Shown: positions 1-7,206 of the stretch, piece after piece | Position numbering within the stretch: position 1 is the stretch's first letter | Layout: every line of letters starts with the position of its first letter | NCBI GenBank assembly: GCA_016209865.1 | Contig: JACQVL010000093.1 | Location: 1 to 7,206, forward strand | DNA from: Candidatus Latescibacterota bacterium | Lineage (GTDB): Bacteria > JAAXHH01 > JACQVL01 | Direction: 5' to 3' | DNA: 7,206 nucleotides | The notes under the pieces: model-generated | Databases searched by the model: none | What the model saw: the letters and a program-made list of their open reading frames with translations, nothing else | What the model was told of the DNA's origin: nothing | Position numbers and translations under genes: made by a program

Positions 1-339
1 GATGACGGCAGCATCCGCGCGTTCCTGCCCGATTTAGTGGAGATGGGAATCGATATCCTCAACCCGGTGCAGTGGACCTGTCCCGGCATGGACCGGGTGG
101 AACTGAAACAGGAATTTGGGGATCGACTCTGCTTCCACGGCGCGGTCGATAATCAACGCATCCTCCCGTTCGGGACGCCGGAGGACGTGCGCGCCGAAGT
201 GCGACGCTGCATCGATGCCCTGGCCAGCGACAGGACAGGCTACATCCTCGCCCCCTGTCACAACATTCAGCCAGTCACTTCGTTAGACAACATCCTCGCC
301 ATGTATGACGAAGCCTGGCAGTATGGACGGTACGCATAA
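1..339 (+). CDS. URO-D superfamily (methyltransferase-like) protein, C-terminal part
   Basis: The reading frame is open from the first base and ends at TAA 337-339, giving 112 residues; the start lies upstream of the window. The visible part begins DDGSIRAFLPDLVEMGIDIL and runs into NPVQ, the segment that follows the metal-binding H-x-C/D-G motif in URO-D-like proteins. If the motif is kept, the residue just before the window should be His, with Asp2 in the usual Cys position. Further on are GTPEDVRAEV (a helix typical of the last repeat of the barrel) and YILAPCHNIQP with Cys86, near the usual third zinc ligand, then a NILAMYDEAWQYGRYA tail. That tail resembles the C-terminus of the URO-D-like protein at 2457-3617, so the two are probably paralogues. 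Such proteins often act in corrinoid-dependent methyl transfer. Substrate unknown. A 215-nt gap separates it from the next gene, so it may belong to a different transcript. Confidence 0.85.
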   Translation, partial: DDGSIRAFLPDLVEMGIDILNPVQWTCPGMDRVELKQEFGDRLCFHGAVDNQRILPFGTPEDVRAEVRRCIDALASDRTGYILAPCHNIQPVTSLDNILAMYDEAWQYGRYA

Positions 340-352
340 ACGACCATATTTT

Positions 353-381
353 CACCGCAAAGAGCGCAAAGGACGCAAAGG
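353..381. repeat. 9-bp tandem repeat, three copies of CGCAAAGRN
   Basis: CGCAAAG occurs at 356, 365 and 374, an exact 9-bp period, preceded by CAC and followed directly by GTCAATACGG. It lies 14 nt after the stop of the first gene. Similar CACCGCAAAG-type strings are common in intergenic DNA of several GC-rich phyla (recalled, not searched here). On the minus strand it reads as Phe-Ala-Ser-Phe-Ala-like codons, which creates a false ORF. Function unknown. Confidence 0.7.
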
Positions 382-470
382 TCAATACGGCGAGAATAGA
401 TTTCATGGTACGAGAATTGCTAATGAATTTTGATGAACAGATTCGATCATCGATTGATTCATGGCACGGC

Positions 471-500
471 TGTAGGGGCGCAGGATTCTGCGCCCCTACA
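471..500. repeat. perfect 13-bp inverted repeat with 4-nt loop
   Basis: The arms TGTAGGGGCGCAG (471-483) and CTGCGCCCCTACA (488-500) are exact reverse complements around the loop GATT. The stem is GC-rich and could form a strong hairpin in DNA or RNA. No T-run follows it, so it does not look like a standard intrinsic terminator. It could still act as a transcript-end or processing hairpin between the first gene and the AOR gene. The same type of palindrome (TGTAGGGGCGCAG...) is known to me as a dispersed intergenic repeat in some bacterial genomes, so a small non-autonomous repeat element is the likeliest reading. Confidence 0.8.
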
Positions 501-554
501 ACATCCCTACAACGATGACTCCGCACTCCGCGATAAATAGACAGGAGACATGCC

Positions 555-2453
555 ATGCCATACGGCTATAACGGAACGATCCTGCGCGTCAACCTGACGA
601 CCGGGGCGATCACGACCGAGGAACCGGGAGAGGCCATCTACCGGCGCTACTTGGGCGGCGGAGGGTTGGGCGCTTACTATCTGCTGAAGGAGGTGCCTGC
701 CGGGATCGACCCCTTCGGGCCGGAGAATAAACTCATCTTCATGACCAGCGTGATCAACGGGACGCCGCTGTCCGGGGTCAACCGCTACGCGGCGGTGGCC
801 AAGTCCCCACTGACCGACGGCTACGGCGAGTCCGAGGCCGGCGGCTACTGGGGGCCGGCCCTGAAAGCCGCCGGGTTCGACGGGATCATCGTGGAGGGGC
901 AGGCCGAGAGGCCGGTCTACCTGTACGTCAACGACGGGGAATGCGAAATCCGCGACGCGTCGCGCTACTGGGGACAGTTAGCCGACGCCGTGCAGCACGG
1001 GCTGGAGGAAGAGATCGGGGACAAGAAAATCCGGGTGCTCCAGACGGGCGTCGCCGGGGAGAACCTGGTGCGCTTCGCGGCCATCGTCAACCAGCAGCGG
1101 CATTTTCACGGACGGGCCGGACTGGGAGCGGTGATGGGGTCGAAGAGACTCAAAGCCATCGTCTGCCGGGGCCGGAAACGGATGGAACTGGCCGACAAAG
1201 AGGACATGCAGCGGGTGCTCCAGTGGTTCAAGGAGGCGTACGACCCGGACACAGACCCCAGGCATGACATGGGAACCGCCCAGGCGGTGCGGCTCCTGAA
1301 CGCGGACGGCATCCTGCCGACGTACAACTTCCGGGATGGGTCGTTCGAACAGGCGATGAACATCAGCGGCCAGACGATGCGGGATACCATCTTGGCCAAC
1401 CGTGGCACCTGCTACGCCTGTGTCGTCGCCTGCAAACGGGAGGTGGAGGTCGAGGGCACGGATGTGACCCCGGAGTACGGCGGGCCGGAGTACGAGACGA
1501 TCGCGGCGCACGGCTCCCTGTTAGGCATCGGCAACCTGAACCATATCGCACTGGTCAACAAGATGCTGGCCCAGTATGTCCTCGATTCGATCTCGACCGG
1601 CGCGGTCATCGGGTTTGCGATGGAATGTTACGAGCGGGGCATCATCACCCGTGAGGACACGGACGGGCTTGAACTCACTTTCGGGAACGAGGAGGTCGCC
1701 TTGCGGCTGATCGACCTGATCGCCCGCCGGGAAGGGATCGGGGCTATCCTGGCCGACGGGGTGATGCGAGCGGCGGCTCGATTCGGCCAGGGGGCGGAAC
1801 ACTACGCCCTGCACGTGAAGGGCCAGGAAATCCCGATGCACGAGCCGCGCGGCAAGCGGAGCCTGGCCTTAGCCTACGCGACCTCCCCGACGGGCGCGGA
1901 TCACATGGAAGCCCCGCACGACCCGTTCTACGAGTCGTTCAACCCGGCCGGCCATCACGCTCTGTCGGCGCTCGGCCTGATCGAGCCGGTCGACCGGCTC
2001 GACATGGGGCCGAAGAAAGTCAAAGCGTTCTACTACACCCAGCTCGTCTGGAGCCTCTACGATACCGTCGGGATGTGCGATTTCGTCTGTGCACCCATCA
2101 ACGACCTGGAGCTGGATAAACTGGTCGATTACGTGAGCGCCGTGACCGGCTGGGAAGTCAGTCTGTGGGAACTCCTCAAAGTCTCCGAACGGGGGAACGC
2201 CATGAAGCGAGCGTTCAACGTGCGCGAAGGGTTCGGTCCGGAAGACGATACCCTGCCGGAGCGCCTGTTCGAACCCCTTCAATCGGGCGCGCTCAAGGGG
2301 GTGGCCATCGACCGGGACGAGTTTGCCCGGATGAAGCGCCTCTACTACGACATGGTCGGCTGGGACCGCACGACCGGCTTCCCGACGACGGCGAAGCTGG
2401 CCGAGCTCGACCTGGACTGGCTGGAGCCGGATCGGCCAGGGAACGGAGAATAA
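555..2453 (+). CDS. aldehyde:ferredoxin oxidoreductase (AOR) family protein
   Basis: A 632-residue protein of normal family length. AOR enzymes are oxygen-sensitive cytoplasmic tungstopterin/[4Fe-4S] enzymes that oxidise aldehydes to acids and pass electrons to ferredoxin. The N-terminal domain (about 5-205) opens with GYNGTILRVNLTTG and carries the pterin-binding stretch KSPLTDGYGESEAGGYWGP (83-101). The C-terminal domains (about 215-615) hold the cluster ligands Cys286, Cys289, Cys293 (CX2CX3C) and Cys508 in DTVGMC, five residues after Asp503, as in Pyrococcus furiosus AOR (Asp489/Cys494). PEYE (311-314) and TGADH (446-450) supply likely active-site Glu and His. One pterin-contact position looks altered: Ala339 stands five residues before Asp344, where Asp or Asn is usual. 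Start: ATG 555 with AGGAG 543-547, seven bases upstream; the ATG at 550 is out of frame. It leads the operon; no ferredoxin-like partner subunit is adjacent. Aldehyde substrate not predictable. Confidence 0.95.
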   Translation: MPYGYNGTILRVNLTTGAITTEEPGEAIYRRYLGGGGLGAYYLLKEVPAGIDPFGPENKLIFMTSVINGTPLSGVNRYAAVAKSPLTDGYGESEAGGYWGPALKAAGFDGIIVEGQAERPVYLYVNDGECEIRDASRYWGQLADAVQHGLEEEIGDKKIRVLQTGVAGENLVRFAAIVNQQRHFHGRAGLGAVMGSKRLKAIVCRGRKRMELADKEDMQRVLQWFKEAYDPDTDPRHDMGTAQAVRLLNADGILPTYNFRDGSFEQAMNISGQTMRDTILANRGTCYACVVACKREVEVEGTDVTPEYGGPEYETIAAHGSLLGIGNLNHIALVNKMLAQYVLDSISTGAVIGFAMECYERGIITREDTDGLELTFGNEEVALRLIDLIARREGIGAILADGVMRAAARFGQGAEHYALHVKGQEIPMHEPRGKRSLALAYATSPTGADHMEAPHDPFYESFNPAGHHALSALGLIEPVDRLDMGPKKVKAFYYTQLVWSLYDTVGMCDFVCAPINDLELDKLVDYVSAVTGWEVSLWELLKVSERGNAMKRAFNVREGFGPEDDTLPERLFEPLQSGALKGVAIDRDEFARMKRLYYDMVGWDRTTGFPTTAKLAELDLDWLEPDRPGNGE

Positions 2454-2456
2454 TCC

Positions 2457-3617
2457 ATGCGCCCCATCGATTACGCCCAGCATAACGCAGAGGTAAAGGC
2501 GATTTGGGACGCCTACTATAAGCGTGAGCCCATCCGGGTGCCGATCATCCTGGGGATCAACCCCCGGTACACGATGTTCGACGACGAGACCAACCCCGAC
2601 CGCATCTCCTTTACGGCCTACTCGACCGACTCCCTGGTCATGTTAGAGCGCCAACTGATCCATCAGGATTGGATCCGCCATCACATCCCCCAGGACATGG
2701 AGATGGGACCGCCTCAAAACGGATGGGCGGTGTACGTTGACTTCCAGAACTACTACGAGGCTGCCTGGCTGGGCTGTGACGTCCACCACTATCAGGGCCA
2801 GGTGCCCGATACCGCGCCCCTCTTGCAGGACGACACCAACAAACACCGCCTGTTCGACCAGGGAATTCCCGACCCGTTCGAGGGTGGGCTCATGCGGCGC
2901 AACTGGGCCTTCTTCGACTACTTCAAGCAAAAGCAGGCCGGGGGGTACACCTACAAAGGCCTGCCCATCGCCTCTGTCGCTCCCGCCGGACTGGGAACGG
3001 ACGGTCCACTCACCGTCGCCTGCAACCTGCGTGGGACGACGGAGTTCATGACCGACCTGTTGGCCGATCCCGGCTACGCCCGCGCCTTGCTCGACTACAT
3101 CACCGAGGCGACGATCGTCAGGATCACCGCCTACCGGCAGCGGCTCGGCCTGCCGCTCAAGACCCCGGAATGGGGGTTCGCGGACGACGCCCTTCAACTC
3201 ATCTCTACAGACCTGTACGAATCCCTCATCCTGCCTTTCCACAGACGGCTGGTCGAGACGTTCTCGGAGGGGGGGCCGAACTCCATCCACCTCTGCGGGG
3301 ACGCGACCCGCCATTTCGGGTTCCTACGGGGTGCGCTGAACATCCAGAGCTTCGATACGGGCTTCCCGATCGACTTTGCGTGGGTGCGCGATCAGGTCGG
3401 GCCGGACGTGGAGATCAGAGGCGGCCCTTCGGTCATGCTGCTCCAGACCGGGTCGCCGGCACAGGTCCGGGCAGAGGTGCGTCGCGTCCTCAGTTCCGGC
3501 GTCATGCGCGGGGGACGGTTCATCCTGCGGGAAGCGAACAACCTTCCGCCGGGCGTTCCCGTGGAGAATCTCTGGGCGATGTATGAGACAGGCAAGGAGT
3601 ATGGACAGTACGAATGA
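2457..3617 (+). CDS. URO-D superfamily protein lacking the third zinc Cys
   Basis: A 386-residue protein of the uroporphyrinogen decarboxylase-like barrel superfamily. It begins three bases after the AOR stop, with CGGAGA 2444-2449 as ribosome binding site, so the two are very probably cotranscribed. Visible motifs: GPLTVACNLRGTTEFMTDLL (183-202), the central repeat typical of MtaA/CmuA-like proteins; FADDALQLISTDLYESLILP (241-260), the substrate-pocket strand; and HLCGD (His278, Cys280), two of the usual zinc ligands. The third ligand, a Cys in the C-terminal Y-I-L-x-x-C segment, is replaced: here FILREANNLPPGVP (355-368) has Ala360-Asn361 instead. There is no RQAGR signature of HemE. The N-terminal segment (1-110) is longer than in standard MtaA-like proteins. 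Likely role is methyl transfer with a corrinoid protein, or a related reaction; substrate unknown. The C-terminal tail NLWAMYETGKEYGQYE resembles that of the first gene in the window. Confidence 0.9.
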   Translation: MRPIDYAQHNAEVKAIWDAYYKREPIRVPIILGINPRYTMFDDETNPDRISFTAYSTDSLVMLERQLIHQDWIRHHIPQDMEMGPPQNGWAVYVDFQNYYEAAWLGCDVHHYQGQVPDTAPLLQDDTNKHRLFDQGIPDPFEGGLMRRNWAFFDYFKQKQAGGYTYKGLPIASVAPAGLGTDGPLTVACNLRGTTEFMTDLLADPGYARALLDYITEATIVRITAYRQRLGLPLKTPEWGFADDALQLISTDLYESLILPFHRRLVETFSEGGPNSIHLCGDATRHFGFLRGALNIQSFDTGFPIDFAWVRDQVGPDVEIRGGPSVMLLQTGSPAQVRAEVRRVLSSGVMRGGRFILREANNLPPGVPVENLWAMYETGKEYGQYE

Positions 3618-3629
3618 AAGGAGCCAAAG

Positions 3630-4874
3630 ATGTCTGATCAACCCCAGTTAACCGCAGAAGAACACGACCGCATCCGGCGGATGCGATGGTGGCACGAGGC
3701 CAAGTTTGGTCTGTTCATCCATTGGGGACTGTACAGCGTGATCGGCCGGCACGAGTGGGCGATGGAAGTGGAAGGGATTCCGGTCGCCGAGTATGAGCAG
3801 TTAGCCACACGGTTCACCCCCAAGCCCCACGCGGCACGTGACTGGGCGCGGCTGGCCAGACGCGCCGGGATGAAGTACATGGTGATGACCACGAAGCACC
3901 ATGAGGGGTTCTGTCTGTTCGATACCCAGTACACCGACTACTGCGCCCCGAAGCGGGCGTGCGGGCGCGACCTCGTCGCCGAGTACGTCGAGGCGGCGCG
4001 GGCAGAAGGGCTGCGGGTGGGGTTCTACTATTCGTTGATGGACTGGCATCATCCCGATGGAGCGCGCTGCGCGCAGGATGAGGCGGCACGGAAGCGCTTC
4101 GTCGAGTACATCCACGGCCAGGTGCGCGAACTCTGCACGAACTACGGCACGCTGGACATCCTGTGGTACGACGTGGCCTGGCCGCTGGACGCGGACGGGT
4201 GGGAATCCGCTAAGATGAACCGCATGGTGCGCGAGCTTCAGCCCGACATCATCCTCAACAACCGTTCGCGGCTCCCTGAAGACTTCAGCACCCCGGAGCA
4301 GCACATCCACGCTGAGGCCGCGGGCCGCGCCTGGGAAGCGTGCATGACGATGAACGAGAGCTGGGGATACCATCAATCGGACGACGCCTGGAAGACGCCC
4401 AAACAGATCATCCGGAACCTCGTCACCTGCGCGCGAGACGGGGGAAACTACCTGCTCAACATTGGCCCCAAGCCGGACGGGTCGATCCCTGAACCGTCGA
4501 TCCAGATTTTGAATGCTGTCGGCGCGTGGATCGACCGGAACGGAGAGACGATCTACGGGGCGGAGCGCTGCGGCGTCACCAGTTCGCTGTTCGCCAACTT
4601 CACCCGCAAGGGGAACACCCTGTACGTGCATGCTCACTTCTGGCCGGGGGAATCGTGGTCGATCGCCGGCCTGAAGACGGAAGTCAAATCTGCTCGTCTG
4701 CTCCGCACCGGCCAGTCGGTCGCGTTCGAGCAGACCCCGTTCCACGTGCGCCTGACCGGTCTGCCGGCCGACGCCCCCGACGACCCGGCGACCGTCCTGG
4801 CCTTAGAATGCGCGTCCGTCCCTGAACAGGACATGCTGGCCGTCCGGACCGGGATGCCGCGCGGCACGGTCTGA
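3630..4874 (+). CDS. GH29 alpha-L-fucosidase, cytoplasmic
   Basis: A 414-residue glycoside hydrolase family 29 enzyme, which releases L-fucose from alpha-linked fucosides with retention of configuration. The catalytic barrel (about 12-310) shows the family hallmarks in order: WWHEAKFGLFIHWGLYSV (20-37), the fucose-binding KHHEGFCLFDT (89-99), GFYYSLMDWHHP (131-142), the nucleophile region LDILWYD with Asp181, WEACMTMNESWGY (235-247) and LLNIGPKPDGSIP (275-287). The acid/base residue varies in this family; Glu223 and Glu236 are candidates but I cannot choose. Residues about 315-395 form the small C-terminal beta-sandwich. The N-terminus (MSDQPQLTAEEHDRIRRM) is hydrophilic, with no signal peptide or lipobox, so it should act on imported oligosaccharides or small glycosides. 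AAAGGAG 3617-3623 sits six bases before the ATG, and the gene starts 12 bases after its neighbour, inside the operon. Whether fucose or an O-methylated deoxysugar is the real substrate cannot be seen. Confidence 0.95.
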   Translation: MSDQPQLTAEEHDRIRRMRWWHEAKFGLFIHWGLYSVIGRHEWAMEVEGIPVAEYEQLATRFTPKPHAARDWARLARRAGMKYMVMTTKHHEGFCLFDTQYTDYCAPKRACGRDLVAEYVEAARAEGLRVGFYYSLMDWHHPDGARCAQDEAARKRFVEYIHGQVRELCTNYGTLDILWYDVAWPLDADGWESAKMNRMVRELQPDIILNNRSRLPEDFSTPEQHIHAEAAGRAWEACMTMNESWGYHQSDDAWKTPKQIIRNLVTCARDGGNYLLNIGPKPDGSIPEPSIQILNAVGAWIDRNGETIYGAERCGVTSSLFANFTRKGNTLYVHAHFWPGESWSIAGLKTEVKSARLLRTGQSVAFEQTPFHVRLTGLPADAPDDPATVLALECASVPEQDMLAVRTGMPRGTV

Positions 4875-4877
4875 TAT

Positions 4878-4883
4878 AAGAGG
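4878..4883 (+). promoter_or_regulatory. ribosome binding site deciding a GTG start
   Basis: AAGAGG lies eight bases before GTG 4892. The protein motif that starts there, MQPRDRMFHVFTGQPVDRLP, matches the usual opening of MtaA-like proteins (basic/acidic RxR, then G-x-x-x-D-R-x-P). This supports GTG 4892 over the internal ATG 4910. Confidence 0.7.
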
Positions 4884-4891
4884 TTCCTCCC

Positions 4892-5962
4892 GTGCAACCC
4901 AGAGACCGCATGTTTCATGTCTTCACCGGCCAGCCGGTCGACCGCCTGCCCGCCCAGCCGATCTGCATGACCTTTGCCGCCCGGACGGCGGGGGTCGATT
5001 ACTACTCGTACGTCACCGACTACCGAGTGCTGGTCGATGCCCAGGTTCGGACGGCGGAACGCTTCGACCTCGACATCGTCACCCTCTGCTCCGACCCCTG
5101 CCGGGAGGCCGCCGACTGCGGCGCGCCCGTCCGGTGGTTTCCCGATCAGCCCCCAGCACACGACCCGCGGGACCCCCTGATCAAGGAGAAACGGGACCTG
5201 GGACGGCTACAACAGCCCGACCCATACAGCGGCGGGCGCATGTACGACCGGGTGAAAGGCGCGGCCCTATTGAAGGAGAAGGTCGGGGGCGATCTCCCCA
5301 TCTTAGGTTGGATCGAAGGGCCGATGGCTGAGGCGGCTGACCTGCGGGGCATGAACGAGATCATGCTCGACCTGATCGACGACCCCGCCTTCGTCCACGA
5401 CCTGTTCGCGTTCATCGTGGAGATGGAGCTGAACTTCGCGCGCGCCCAGATCGACGCCGGGATCGACATCATCGGCATCGGAGACGCGGCGGCGTCCCTG
5501 GTCGGCCCCGACCTCTACCACACGCTGATCTTCCCGTACCAGCAGCAGATGGTGGACATCCTGCACGCGATGGACTGTCCGGTCCGGCTCCACATCTGCG
5601 GGAATGCCACACATCTGCTGGCCGATATGGGACGGCTGGGCGTGGAGATGGTGGACATCGACGCCCCGGTCGACCTGAGGCTGGCGCGCGAACGGATGGG
5701 ACCGGACGTGGCCATCCTGGGGAACATCCATCCGGTGCAGTACCTGCTGGAAGGAACCCCGGAGGATGTGTTTGAAGGACTGGCCATCTGTCACGAGCAG
5801 GTCGGCGACCGGTACATCGTCGGGCCGGGGTGCGAAGTTCCGCCGCTGAGTCCGCCGGAGAACGTGCGCGCCGTGGTGGACTATGCGAAGGCAACAGCAG
5901 TGACCCCTCACCCCCGGCCCCTCTCCCACAGCGGGGAGAGGGGAGACACCCATGCCCTCTAA
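4892..5962 (+). CDS. MtaA/CmuA-like URO-D family methyltransferase with full zinc triad
   Basis: A 356-residue protein starting at GTG. It is the most canonical of the URO-D-like set: opening PRDRMFHVFTGQPVDR (3-18), SDPCREAADCGAPV (67-80), LGWIEGPMAEAADLRGMNEI (138-157), IGIGDAAASLVGPDLY (194-209), HICGN with His234 and Cys236, LGNIHPVQYLLEGTPEDV (276-293) and YIVGPGCEVPP with Cys314. His234, Cys236 and Cys314 match the zinc site that activates a thiol methyl acceptor in MtaA-type enzymes, so transfer of a methyl group between a corrinoid protein and a thiol or folate acceptor is the likely reaction. Cys66, Cys70 and Cys76 are an extra cluster of unknown meaning. Natural family sequence ends near VVDYAKATAV (residue 337); the last 19 residues (from TPHPRPLSHSGERG) come from the repeat at 5905-6020 and are probably a non-functional tail. 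No HemE RQAGR signature. It starts 17 bases after the fucosidase stop. Acceptor and donor unknown. Confidence 0.92.
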   Translation: MQPRDRMFHVFTGQPVDRLPAQPICMTFAARTAGVDYYSYVTDYRVLVDAQVRTAERFDLDIVTLCSDPCREAADCGAPVRWFPDQPPAHDPRDPLIKEKRDLGRLQQPDPYSGGRMYDRVKGAALLKEKVGGDLPILGWIEGPMAEAADLRGMNEIMLDLIDDPAFVHDLFAFIVEMELNFARAQIDAGIDIIGIGDAAASLVGPDLYHTLIFPYQQQMVDILHAMDCPVRLHICGNATHLLADMGRLGVEMVDIDAPVDLRLARERMGPDVAILGNIHPVQYLLEGTPEDVFEGLAICHEQVGDRYIVGPGCEVPPLSPPENVRAVVDYAKATAVTPHPRPLSHSGERGDTHAL

Positions 5963-6020
5963 GCACTCTCCCTTTCTCGCCCCTTGTGGGAGAGAAAGGG
6001 GGTCGGGGGGATAGTGAGGG
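5905..6020. repeat. 116-bp imperfect inverted-repeat element across a gene end
   Basis: The outer arms match: CCCTCAC 5905-5911 with GTGAGGG 6014-6020, and CTCTCCCACA 5921-5930 with TGTGGGAGAG 5985-5994, with C-rich/G-rich tracts between. Each half also folds on itself: CCCCTCTCCC 5918-5927 pairs with GGGAGAGGGG 5934-5943 (10 bp, 6-nt loop), and CCCTTTCTC 5970-5978 pairs with GAGAAAGGG 5992-6000 (9 bp, 13-nt loop). It covers the last codons and the TAA (5960-5962) of the preceding gene and fills most of the gap to the next. Elements encoding PHPRPLSHSGERG-like peptides are known to me as common intergenic repeats. It resembles a REP/MITE-like unit; no transposase is present. The two hairpins may damp expression of the downstream gene. 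Confidence 0.8.
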
Positions 6021-6022
6021 CC

Positions 6023-6029
6023 AGAGAAG
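6023..6029 (+). promoter_or_regulatory. ribosome binding site deciding the start of the last gene
   Basis: AGAGAAG ends five bases before ATG 6035 and eleven before ATG 6041. It lies just outside the repeat. An upstream in-frame TTG at 5984 would start inside the repeat and add a repeat-encoded leader, so ATG 6035 is preferred; ATG 6041 remains possible. Confidence 0.55.
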
Positions 6030-6034
6030 ACCTC

Positions 6035-7108
6035 ATGGACATGGAATTCAAACCCGACTGGCCTCAAGCCGTCGAACGCTTTCAAGCCTGGTGGGCGGGC
6101 GACATCATCGATCGCGTCGCTCTCCAGGTGACCGCCCCCAAAGCCGGGTATCAGCCCAGACCAGTCCCCCCACCCCCCACGCTCGAAGCACGCTGGACGA
6201 GCGTCGATTACGTCATCGAAGCGGCGGAAGAGCGCATGCGGGCCACGTTCTACGGGGGCGAAGCGTTCCCCATCTTCTTCCCCAGCTTAGGGCCGGACGT
6301 GTTCAGCGCCTACCTGGGGTGCGAATCGATCTTCGCCCCGGACACGATCTGGGTGAAGCCCAACATCACGGATTGGGACAATCCCCCGCCCCTGACGCTC
6401 GACCCGAGCAATCGCTGGTGGCGGTTGACCTTAGAGATGATCGAACGGGCGTTAGAGCGAGCGCCGGGACGGTATTTCGTCGGCCTCACCGACCTCCACG
6501 GCGGGATGGACGCGCTCTCCGCCATGCGGGGGCGTGAACAGCTCTGCGTTGATCTGATCGATTGTCCAGAGAAGATTAAGGTGGCGATGGAGGACTTCAT
6601 CACCCCGCTGTGGTTCGACATCTATGAAGCCATGCATCAGCCAATCCAGGAGAAGATGACCGGCTCGACTTCCTGGTTCCCCGTCTGGTCGCCCGGACGG
6701 TGGTACCCGACCTCCTGCGACTTCGCGGCGCTGGTCTCCCCGGCGATGTTCGATGACTTCATCCTGCCGGACATCGTCGCTGAGGTCGAATGGCTCGACC
6801 ATTCACTCTACCATCTCGACGGCCCGGACGCGATCGTCCACCTGGATTCCCTGCTCAACATCCCCAGGCTCGGCGGCATCCAGTGGGTGCCGGGCGCCCG
6901 GTACTCGTCAATGCTGCCCTGGCTGCCGCTCCTGAAACGCATTCAGCGGGCGGGCAAACTGTTGCATCTAAGTGTCAACCCCTATGAGATCGAGCCGCTC
7001 TTGCGCGAATTATCCCCCAACGGGGTGATGTTCCATACATCCTGTCCCACTGAAGCCGAAGCGCGGGCGTTGCTGTCAACAGCGGAACGATGGACCCGGA
7101 GTGGATAA
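6035..7108 (+). CDS. divergent URO-D-like protein with HLDG in place of HxCG
   Basis: A 357-residue protein from ATG 6035. It opens MDMEFKPDWPQAVERFQAWWAGDIIDRVAL, the amphipathic helix plus D-R-x-x-L/P turn seen at the front of URO-D-like proteins. Other recognisable parts are YFVGLTDLHGGMDALSAMRG (147-166), matching the central G-P/L-x-x-x-x-x-x-R-G repeat; CVDLIDCPEKIKVAMEDF (171-188); SPAMFDDFILPDIV (235-248); and YHLDGPDAIVHLDSLL (259-274). The last holds His260 and Asp262 where zinc-type relatives have His-x-Cys, so metal binding, if any, differs. NPYEIEPLLREL is followed by FHTSCPTEAEARALL with Cys337. The family is often labelled uroporphyrinogen decarboxylase or trimethylamine corrinoid protein 2-like in databases (recalled), without proven function. 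HemE signature residues are absent. It is probably the last gene of the operon, separated from its neighbour by the repeat at 5905-6020 and followed by another repeat copy. Methyltransferase activity is a weak inference. Confidence 0.85.
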   Translation: MDMEFKPDWPQAVERFQAWWAGDIIDRVALQVTAPKAGYQPRPVPPPPTLEARWTSVDYVIEAAEERMRATFYGGEAFPIFFPSLGPDVFSAYLGCESIFAPDTIWVKPNITDWDNPPPLTLDPSNRWWRLTLEMIERALERAPGRYFVGLTDLHGGMDALSAMRGREQLCVDLIDCPEKIKVAMEDFITPLWFDIYEAMHQPIQEKMTGSTSWFPVWSPGRWYPTSCDFAALVSPAMFDDFILPDIVAEVEWLDHSLYHLDGPDAIVHLDSLLNIPRLGGIQWVPGARYSSMLPWLPLLKRIQRAGKLLHLSVNPYEIEPLLRELSPNGVMFHTSCPTEAEARALLSTAERWTRSG

Positions 7109-7170: not shown

Positions 7171-7206
7171 CTCACCTCATCCCCCGCTCCCCCTTCCCCT
7201 CTCCGC
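7171..7206. repeat. probable second copy of the C-rich repeat, cut by the window end
   Basis: CCTCAC, then a TCCCCC and CTCCCCCTTCCCCTCTCC tract, follow the same order as the reverse complement of the right arm of the 5905-6020 element (CCTCAC, ATCCCCCCGACCCCC, TTTCTCTCC). Only one arm is inside the window. The 62 bases before it (7109-7170) contain an AT-richer patch with TTTTT but no hairpin I can support as a terminator. Confidence 0.55.

Follow-up and report, generated by a model that had tools for sequence, protein, structure and literature searches.

An aldehyde oxidoreductase, four URO-D-superfamily proteins and an alpha-L-fucosidase in a possible carbohydrate-catabolism locus of a Latescibacterota bacterium

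Gene Content of the Locus

We analyzed a 7,206-bp contig (JACQVL010000093.1, assembly GCA_016209865.1; contig C41 below) of Candidatus Latescibacterota bacterium. The contig was studied whole and is referred to as the window. It comes from a 3.75-Mb draft genome (G000) that is divided into 356 contigs and is 83% complete. Analysis of its open reading frames (ORFs) showed five open ORFs on one strand, encoding a tungsten-type aldehyde:ferredoxin oxidoreductase (AOR), three proteins of the URO-D superfamily (U1, U2, and U3), and an alpha-L-fucosidase of glycoside hydrolase family 29 (GH29; the protein is called FUC), and the end of a fourth URO-D gene (U0) lies upstream (Table 1). The intergenic gaps along AOR-U1-FUC-U2-U3 are 3, 12, 17, and about 72 nt. 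A sequence-only reading of the window had described five complete, closely spaced genes with a fourth URO-D gene before them, and the ORF positions, the gaps, and the Pfam match of the partial ORF bear this out. Its assignment of the genes to the AOR, URO-D, and GH29 families was likewise upheld by Pfam and, for U3, by profile comparison.

Table 1. Genes and other sequence features of the window
Feature	Position	Strand	Product or length	Match or remark
U0	1-339	+	URO-D-superfamily protein, C-terminal 112 codons	Partial ORF; Pfam URO-D, E 1.5e-14
Non-coding gap	340-554	+	215 nt	Between U0 and AOR; 48% GC vs 60-66% in genes
Palindrome	472-499		28 nt	Repeat-like; inside the 215-nt gap before AOR
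AOR	555-2453	+	Tungsten-type aldehyde:ferredoxin oxidoreductase, 632 aa	Pfam AFOR_N + AFOR_C
U1	2457-3617	+	URO-D-superfamily protein, 386 aa	Pfam URO-D, E 1.3e-19
FUC	3630-4874	+	GH29 alpha-L-fucosidase, 414 aa	Pfam Alpha_L_fucos, E 7e-88
U2	4892-5962	+	MtaA/CmuA-like URO-D-superfamily protein	GTG start; Pfam URO-D, E 3e-63
Repeat-like element	5904-5943	+		G+C-rich; reaches into the 3' end of U2
U3	6035-7108	+	Divergent URO-D-superfamily protein	Start 6035 or 6041; TTG 5984 possible alternative
Repeat-like sequence	7171-7206	+		Similar to one on contig C173; the contig stops there

AOR matched both of its Pfam models over their full length (AFOR_N, E 9e-74; AFOR_C, E 6e-128). Its best solved relative is 1AOR (E 1.7e-113), and an alignment with this protein showed that the iron-sulfur cluster ligands (CxxCxxxC and a distal Cys) are retained. 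In FUC, the WxD aspartate aligned with that of its solved match 6GN6 (E 6e-106), and no signal peptide was obvious at the N terminus when judged by eye.

The five genes may be cotranscribed. A Shine-Dalgarno-like sequence precedes AOR, U1, and FUC. The GC content varies little among the five genes (0.62-0.66), and thus there is no sign of a chimera within the run. Because the gap before AOR contains a palindrome, U0 and the genes upstream of it may form a separate transcription unit. The number of promoter-like sites was near chance; terminator-like sites numbered 7, compared with 3.4 in shuffled sequences, and were mostly on the minus strand or within genes. Searches of the sequence for Rfam families and tRNA genes found none. 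The final ~18 codons of U2 (TPHPRPLSHSGERG...) are the translation of the repeat-like element at its 3' end.

The URO-D-Superfamily Proteins

U2 is the most readily placed of the four URO-D-superfamily proteins. Its best solved relative, matched over the full length, is 4AY7, the methylcobalamin:coenzyme M methyltransferase MtaA, and it scores below the NCBIfam cut-offs for mtaA_cmuA (164 bits vs 235), MtaA (125 vs 400), and MtbA. U0, which is 352 aa long when its translation is joined to contig C173 (see below), gave a weak match to CdmB (E 0.0014). Relatives of U1 were found at 43-53% identity in three genomes (G053, G059, and G030); on one contig (G059:C123; L208 5839-7025), a U1 relative lies in two ORFs, which reflects either gene disruption or misassembly. 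Sequence searches found no solved relatives of U1 or U3.

Neither a Pfam nor an NCBIfam model matched U3. The profile of the U3 family aligned nearly end to end with the URO-D profile (hhalign probability 98.6-98.8%), whereas a GH29 profile, used as a negative control, gave 0.3%. A single-sequence structure prediction for U3 reached a mean predicted local distance difference test score of 41.6 and was not used. Conserved positions in the U3 family (U3 of the window and 23 relatives) include W37, D176, D246, H277, and Q300. U0, U1, and U2 share 23-31% pairwise identity, and U3 had no significant BLAST match to any of them, so that by sequence the four proteins are not recent duplicates of each other. 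Genomes that carry from 22 to at least 60 URO-D-superfamily genes were common among those examined (G068 and G081 among others), and most of these genes have no known function.

We compared the residues that occupy the zinc-site columns of MtaA. U2 has H/C/C (H234, C236, and C314, an H-x-C motif plus a distal C), U1 has H/C/N, and U0 has H/D/H; the full triad is thus found only in U2 among these three. It occurs in 4 of the 42 rows of the URO-D alignment, the others having H/C/H, H/D/N, H/D/H, and further combinations.

Neighborhoods of Related Genes

The sequence-only reading took the gene run to be a candidate operon and named a neighborhood comparison as one test that could refute it. On the evidence of this comparison, we rejected a conserved five-gene operon. 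At 80 GTDB loci with AOR relatives (46-81% identity), the flanks contained no relatives of U1, U2, U3, or GH29 at E 1e-6. The neighbors differed throughout the ten AOR loci that we inspected, and AOR was rejected as a cluster marker because its neighbors were unrelated at every one. In the marine genome SI072_bin148 (G001 and G060 in our set, which are the same genome), which is labelled Latescibacterota and belongs to the same order as the host, a U0 relative (73-76%) adjoins a U2 relative (75%) on one contig, and AOR, U1, and GH29 do not lie between them. Relatives of the other genes are on other contigs of that genome: U3 (64%) next to other URO-D genes on a second contig, AOR (81%) on a third, and GH29 (39%) on a fourth. 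The other searched genomes of the host order, which belong to a different family, had almost no match to U1. In G053, relatives of U1 (42%) and U3 (44%) share a contig and lie about 16 kb apart.

The main rival explanation is that the genes are chance neighbors, that is, that loner AOR, GH29, and URO-D genes were joined by rearrangement in a URO-D-rich genome and might be cotranscribed without serving one pathway. The solitary AOR genes, the adjacency of U0 and U2 relatives in SI072_bin148, and the repeat-like elements in the region all fit this explanation. It sits less easily with five genes on one strand separated in part by only 3, 12, and 17 nt, and with the closeness of GH29 to URO-D genes and of URO-D genes to U3-family genes, which is seen again across genomes. 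We regard it as possible, if doubtful.

The recurring associations were as follows. A same-strand URO-D gene lies within about 120 nt of 8 of 24 U3-family genes, including the three closest with known flanks. Among GH29 loci of other genomes, 5 of 20 have a same-strand URO-D gene within 5 kb, compared with 1.2 expected from the genome-wide URO-D density (Poisson P 0.008); this proximity is suggestive only, because the sample is small, its genomes were picked through earlier hits and are non-random, the Poisson model ignores the clustering of URO-D genes, and the URO-D counts of G081 and G068 are lower bounds (at least 60). For genomes reached through loci, kinship is also not apparent. On contig C231 of the host genome (L145, L146), several URO-D genes lie amid genes for GH10, GH2, CBM9, PfkB (a sugar kinase), mannitol dehydrogenase, and an inositol-phosphate-synthase-like protein, and so URO-D genes are found with sugar enzymes more than once in this genome. 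A U3-family gene on C231 directly follows an MtaA-type (H/C/C) URO-D gene, which is the arrangement of U2 and U3. These recurring pieces suggest that such bacteria may use the URO-D superfamily in sugar breakdown.

Corrinoid Machinery and Upstream Genes

The sequence-only reading reported no corrinoid protein in the window and proposed a search for B12-binding proteins and their activators beyond it. The first point stands: neither a corrinoid protein nor an activator is among the ORFs examined in contig C41 or upstream on C173. The search beyond found both, on contig C245 of the host genome (L148, 452-7691), where genes for a 211-aa corrinoid protein, a RACo activator, a DUF1638 protein, two URO-D proteins, and a homocysteine S-methyltransferase-family protein stand in a row. 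This row is likely a corrinoid methyl-transfer cluster of the genome, and its presence supports the earlier idea that the locus combines sugar catabolism with corrinoid methyl transfer. RACo was found in all 15 URO-D-rich genomes tested but in 1 of the 14 controls. The make-up of C245 is also similar to that of mlp clusters, which raises the alternative that the URO-D proteins serve methyl-sulfur or methyl-selenium metabolism of the mlp kind and are unconnected with the adjacent GH29; as the window has sugar enzymes but no corrinoid protein or activase, we consider this very improbable.

The first 119 bases of contig C41 are identical to the end of contig C173. Exact overlaps are typical of adjacent contigs in an assembly graph, and the join is therefore likely; it falls short of proof because the overlap could mark a branch point. 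Toward C41, C173 carries closely spaced genes for a xylose-isomerase-like TIM-barrel protein, a BKACE protein, a zinc dehydrogenase, and the remainder of U0. BKACE adjoins the TIM-barrel isomerase in two more genomes, there without URO-D, AOR, or GH29. A further repeat-like element lies upstream of the isomerase gene on C173 (L142), and farther upstream are two ABC-exporter-like genes and one PhyH-family gene (L142 5130-8766 and 8957-9829).

Discussion

We tentatively propose that these genes make up a mosaic, lineage-specific locus with which an anaerobe breaks down carbohydrates, combining corrinoid-linked demethylation in trans with aldehyde oxidation. From family membership and context, we infer a fucoside as the substrate and a demethylation step. 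An oligosaccharide would be imported, and a cytoplasmic GH29 enzyme would remove from it an alpha-L-fucosyl residue or a related one. The URO-D proteins would act on the methyl group of an O-methylated sugar; U0 and U1 are candidates for the donor-side methyltransferases, and U2 would be an MtaA-like zinc methyltransferase that hands the methyl group on. From C245, the corrinoid protein and RACo would work in trans. AOR would oxidize an aldehyde, such as an aldose or lactaldehyde, with ferredoxin. If the genes on C173 take part, the zinc dehydrogenase might yield a keto acid, which BKACE would cleave.

Several observations weigh against this proposal. The complete five-gene order was present in none of the relatives examined, and no corrinoid protein lies beside AOR-U1-FUC-U2-U3. 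Neither U0 nor U1 has all three MtaA zinc-site residues, and U3 is so distant that it cannot be judged. The host genome has 22 URO-D hits and one PF02607 hit, which is odd if specific methyltransferases pair with specific corrinoid proteins, and G059, which is 93% complete and has other hits to B12-binding domains, has 26 URO-D hits and zero PF02607 matches. Upstream, U0 and the 215-nt gap stand between AOR and the genes for BKACE and zinc dehydrogenase, and the C173-C41 join itself is deduced from sequence overlap.

As URO-D genes far outnumber PF02607 hits in the host genome and G059, some URO-D proteins need not be methyltransferases. The URO-D-like proteins of the locus could instead use the same fold to catalyze a different reaction, as yet undescribed, on sugars or sugar acids, which would agree with the high variability of the zinc-site columns and the placement of URO-D genes amid sugar enzymes. 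We think this unlikely, given that U2 retains the MtaA residues and that every URO-D-rich genome tested has RACo. CdmB, moreover, is a corrinoid methyltransferase of the UroD superfamily that is active without zinc (PMC13222342), and the absence of a zinc motif therefore leaves methyl transfer possible.

Many algal and bacterial glycans contain O-methylated sugars. If URO-D proteins demethylate such sugars, dozens of paralogues per genome that are now unexplained would gain a function, and in uncultured bacteria the breakdown of glycans would be tied to one-carbon metabolism. A more far-reaching version of our proposal is that Latescibacterota, Poribacteria, and further lineages rich in URO-D genes have in the URO-D superfamily, including the U3 family, a large and scarcely described toolkit for the anaerobic O-demethylation of glycan sugars, in which many substrate-specific URO-D proteins would rely in trans on a single shared corrinoid protein or a few of them; this is speculative, and we hold it to be improbable.

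Comparison with Known Systems

The sequence-only reading knew of no characterized pathway with this set of genes, and in the open-access literature that we searched we found no matching system and nothing direct on URO-D proteins with GH29 or on corrinoid demethylation of sugars. The soluble coenzyme M methyltransferases MtaA and MtbA are like U2 in the full-length match to 4AY7 and the aligned zinc residues; the differences are that U2 falls below the NCBIfam cut-offs, that the locus has no methanogen context, and that U0 and U1 are without the full triad. The known UroD-superfamily O-demethylases and dehalogenases use methoxylated aromatics or haloalkanes (PMC13222342). The locus resembles the MtvB, OdmB, VdmB, MtoB, and CdmB systems in its superfamily, in the presence of a corrinoid protein and RACo in the genome, and in the weak match between U0 and CdmB. 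However, none of these systems that we found is associated with a glycoside hydrolase, and the locus differs further in that the corrinoid protein is encoded on a separate contig.

Type 1 mlp gene clusters encode several different MtaA-like proteins together (PMC10418091), as the window does. They are defined by Mlp2 and Mlp3 together with a corrinoid protein and a Ram protein; the window lacks the last two and has AOR and GH29 in addition. Single-cell genomes of Latescibacteria contain many GH29 and GH95 genes and a fucose pathway with a microcompartment; GH29 is common to this system and our locus, and the portion of the report that we consulted does not mention a link to URO-D or AOR (PMC4454575). 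The oxidative deoxyribose/deoxyribonate pathway proceeds through metal-dependent aldehyde oxidation, hydroxyl oxidation, and BKACE cleavage (PMC6365646). If the upstream genes belong to the locus, its putative order of aldehyde oxidation, hydroxyl oxidation, and BKACE cleavage would resemble that pathway, with an AOR-family enzyme and a zinc MDR protein in place of the molybdenum hydroxylase and the SDR protein.
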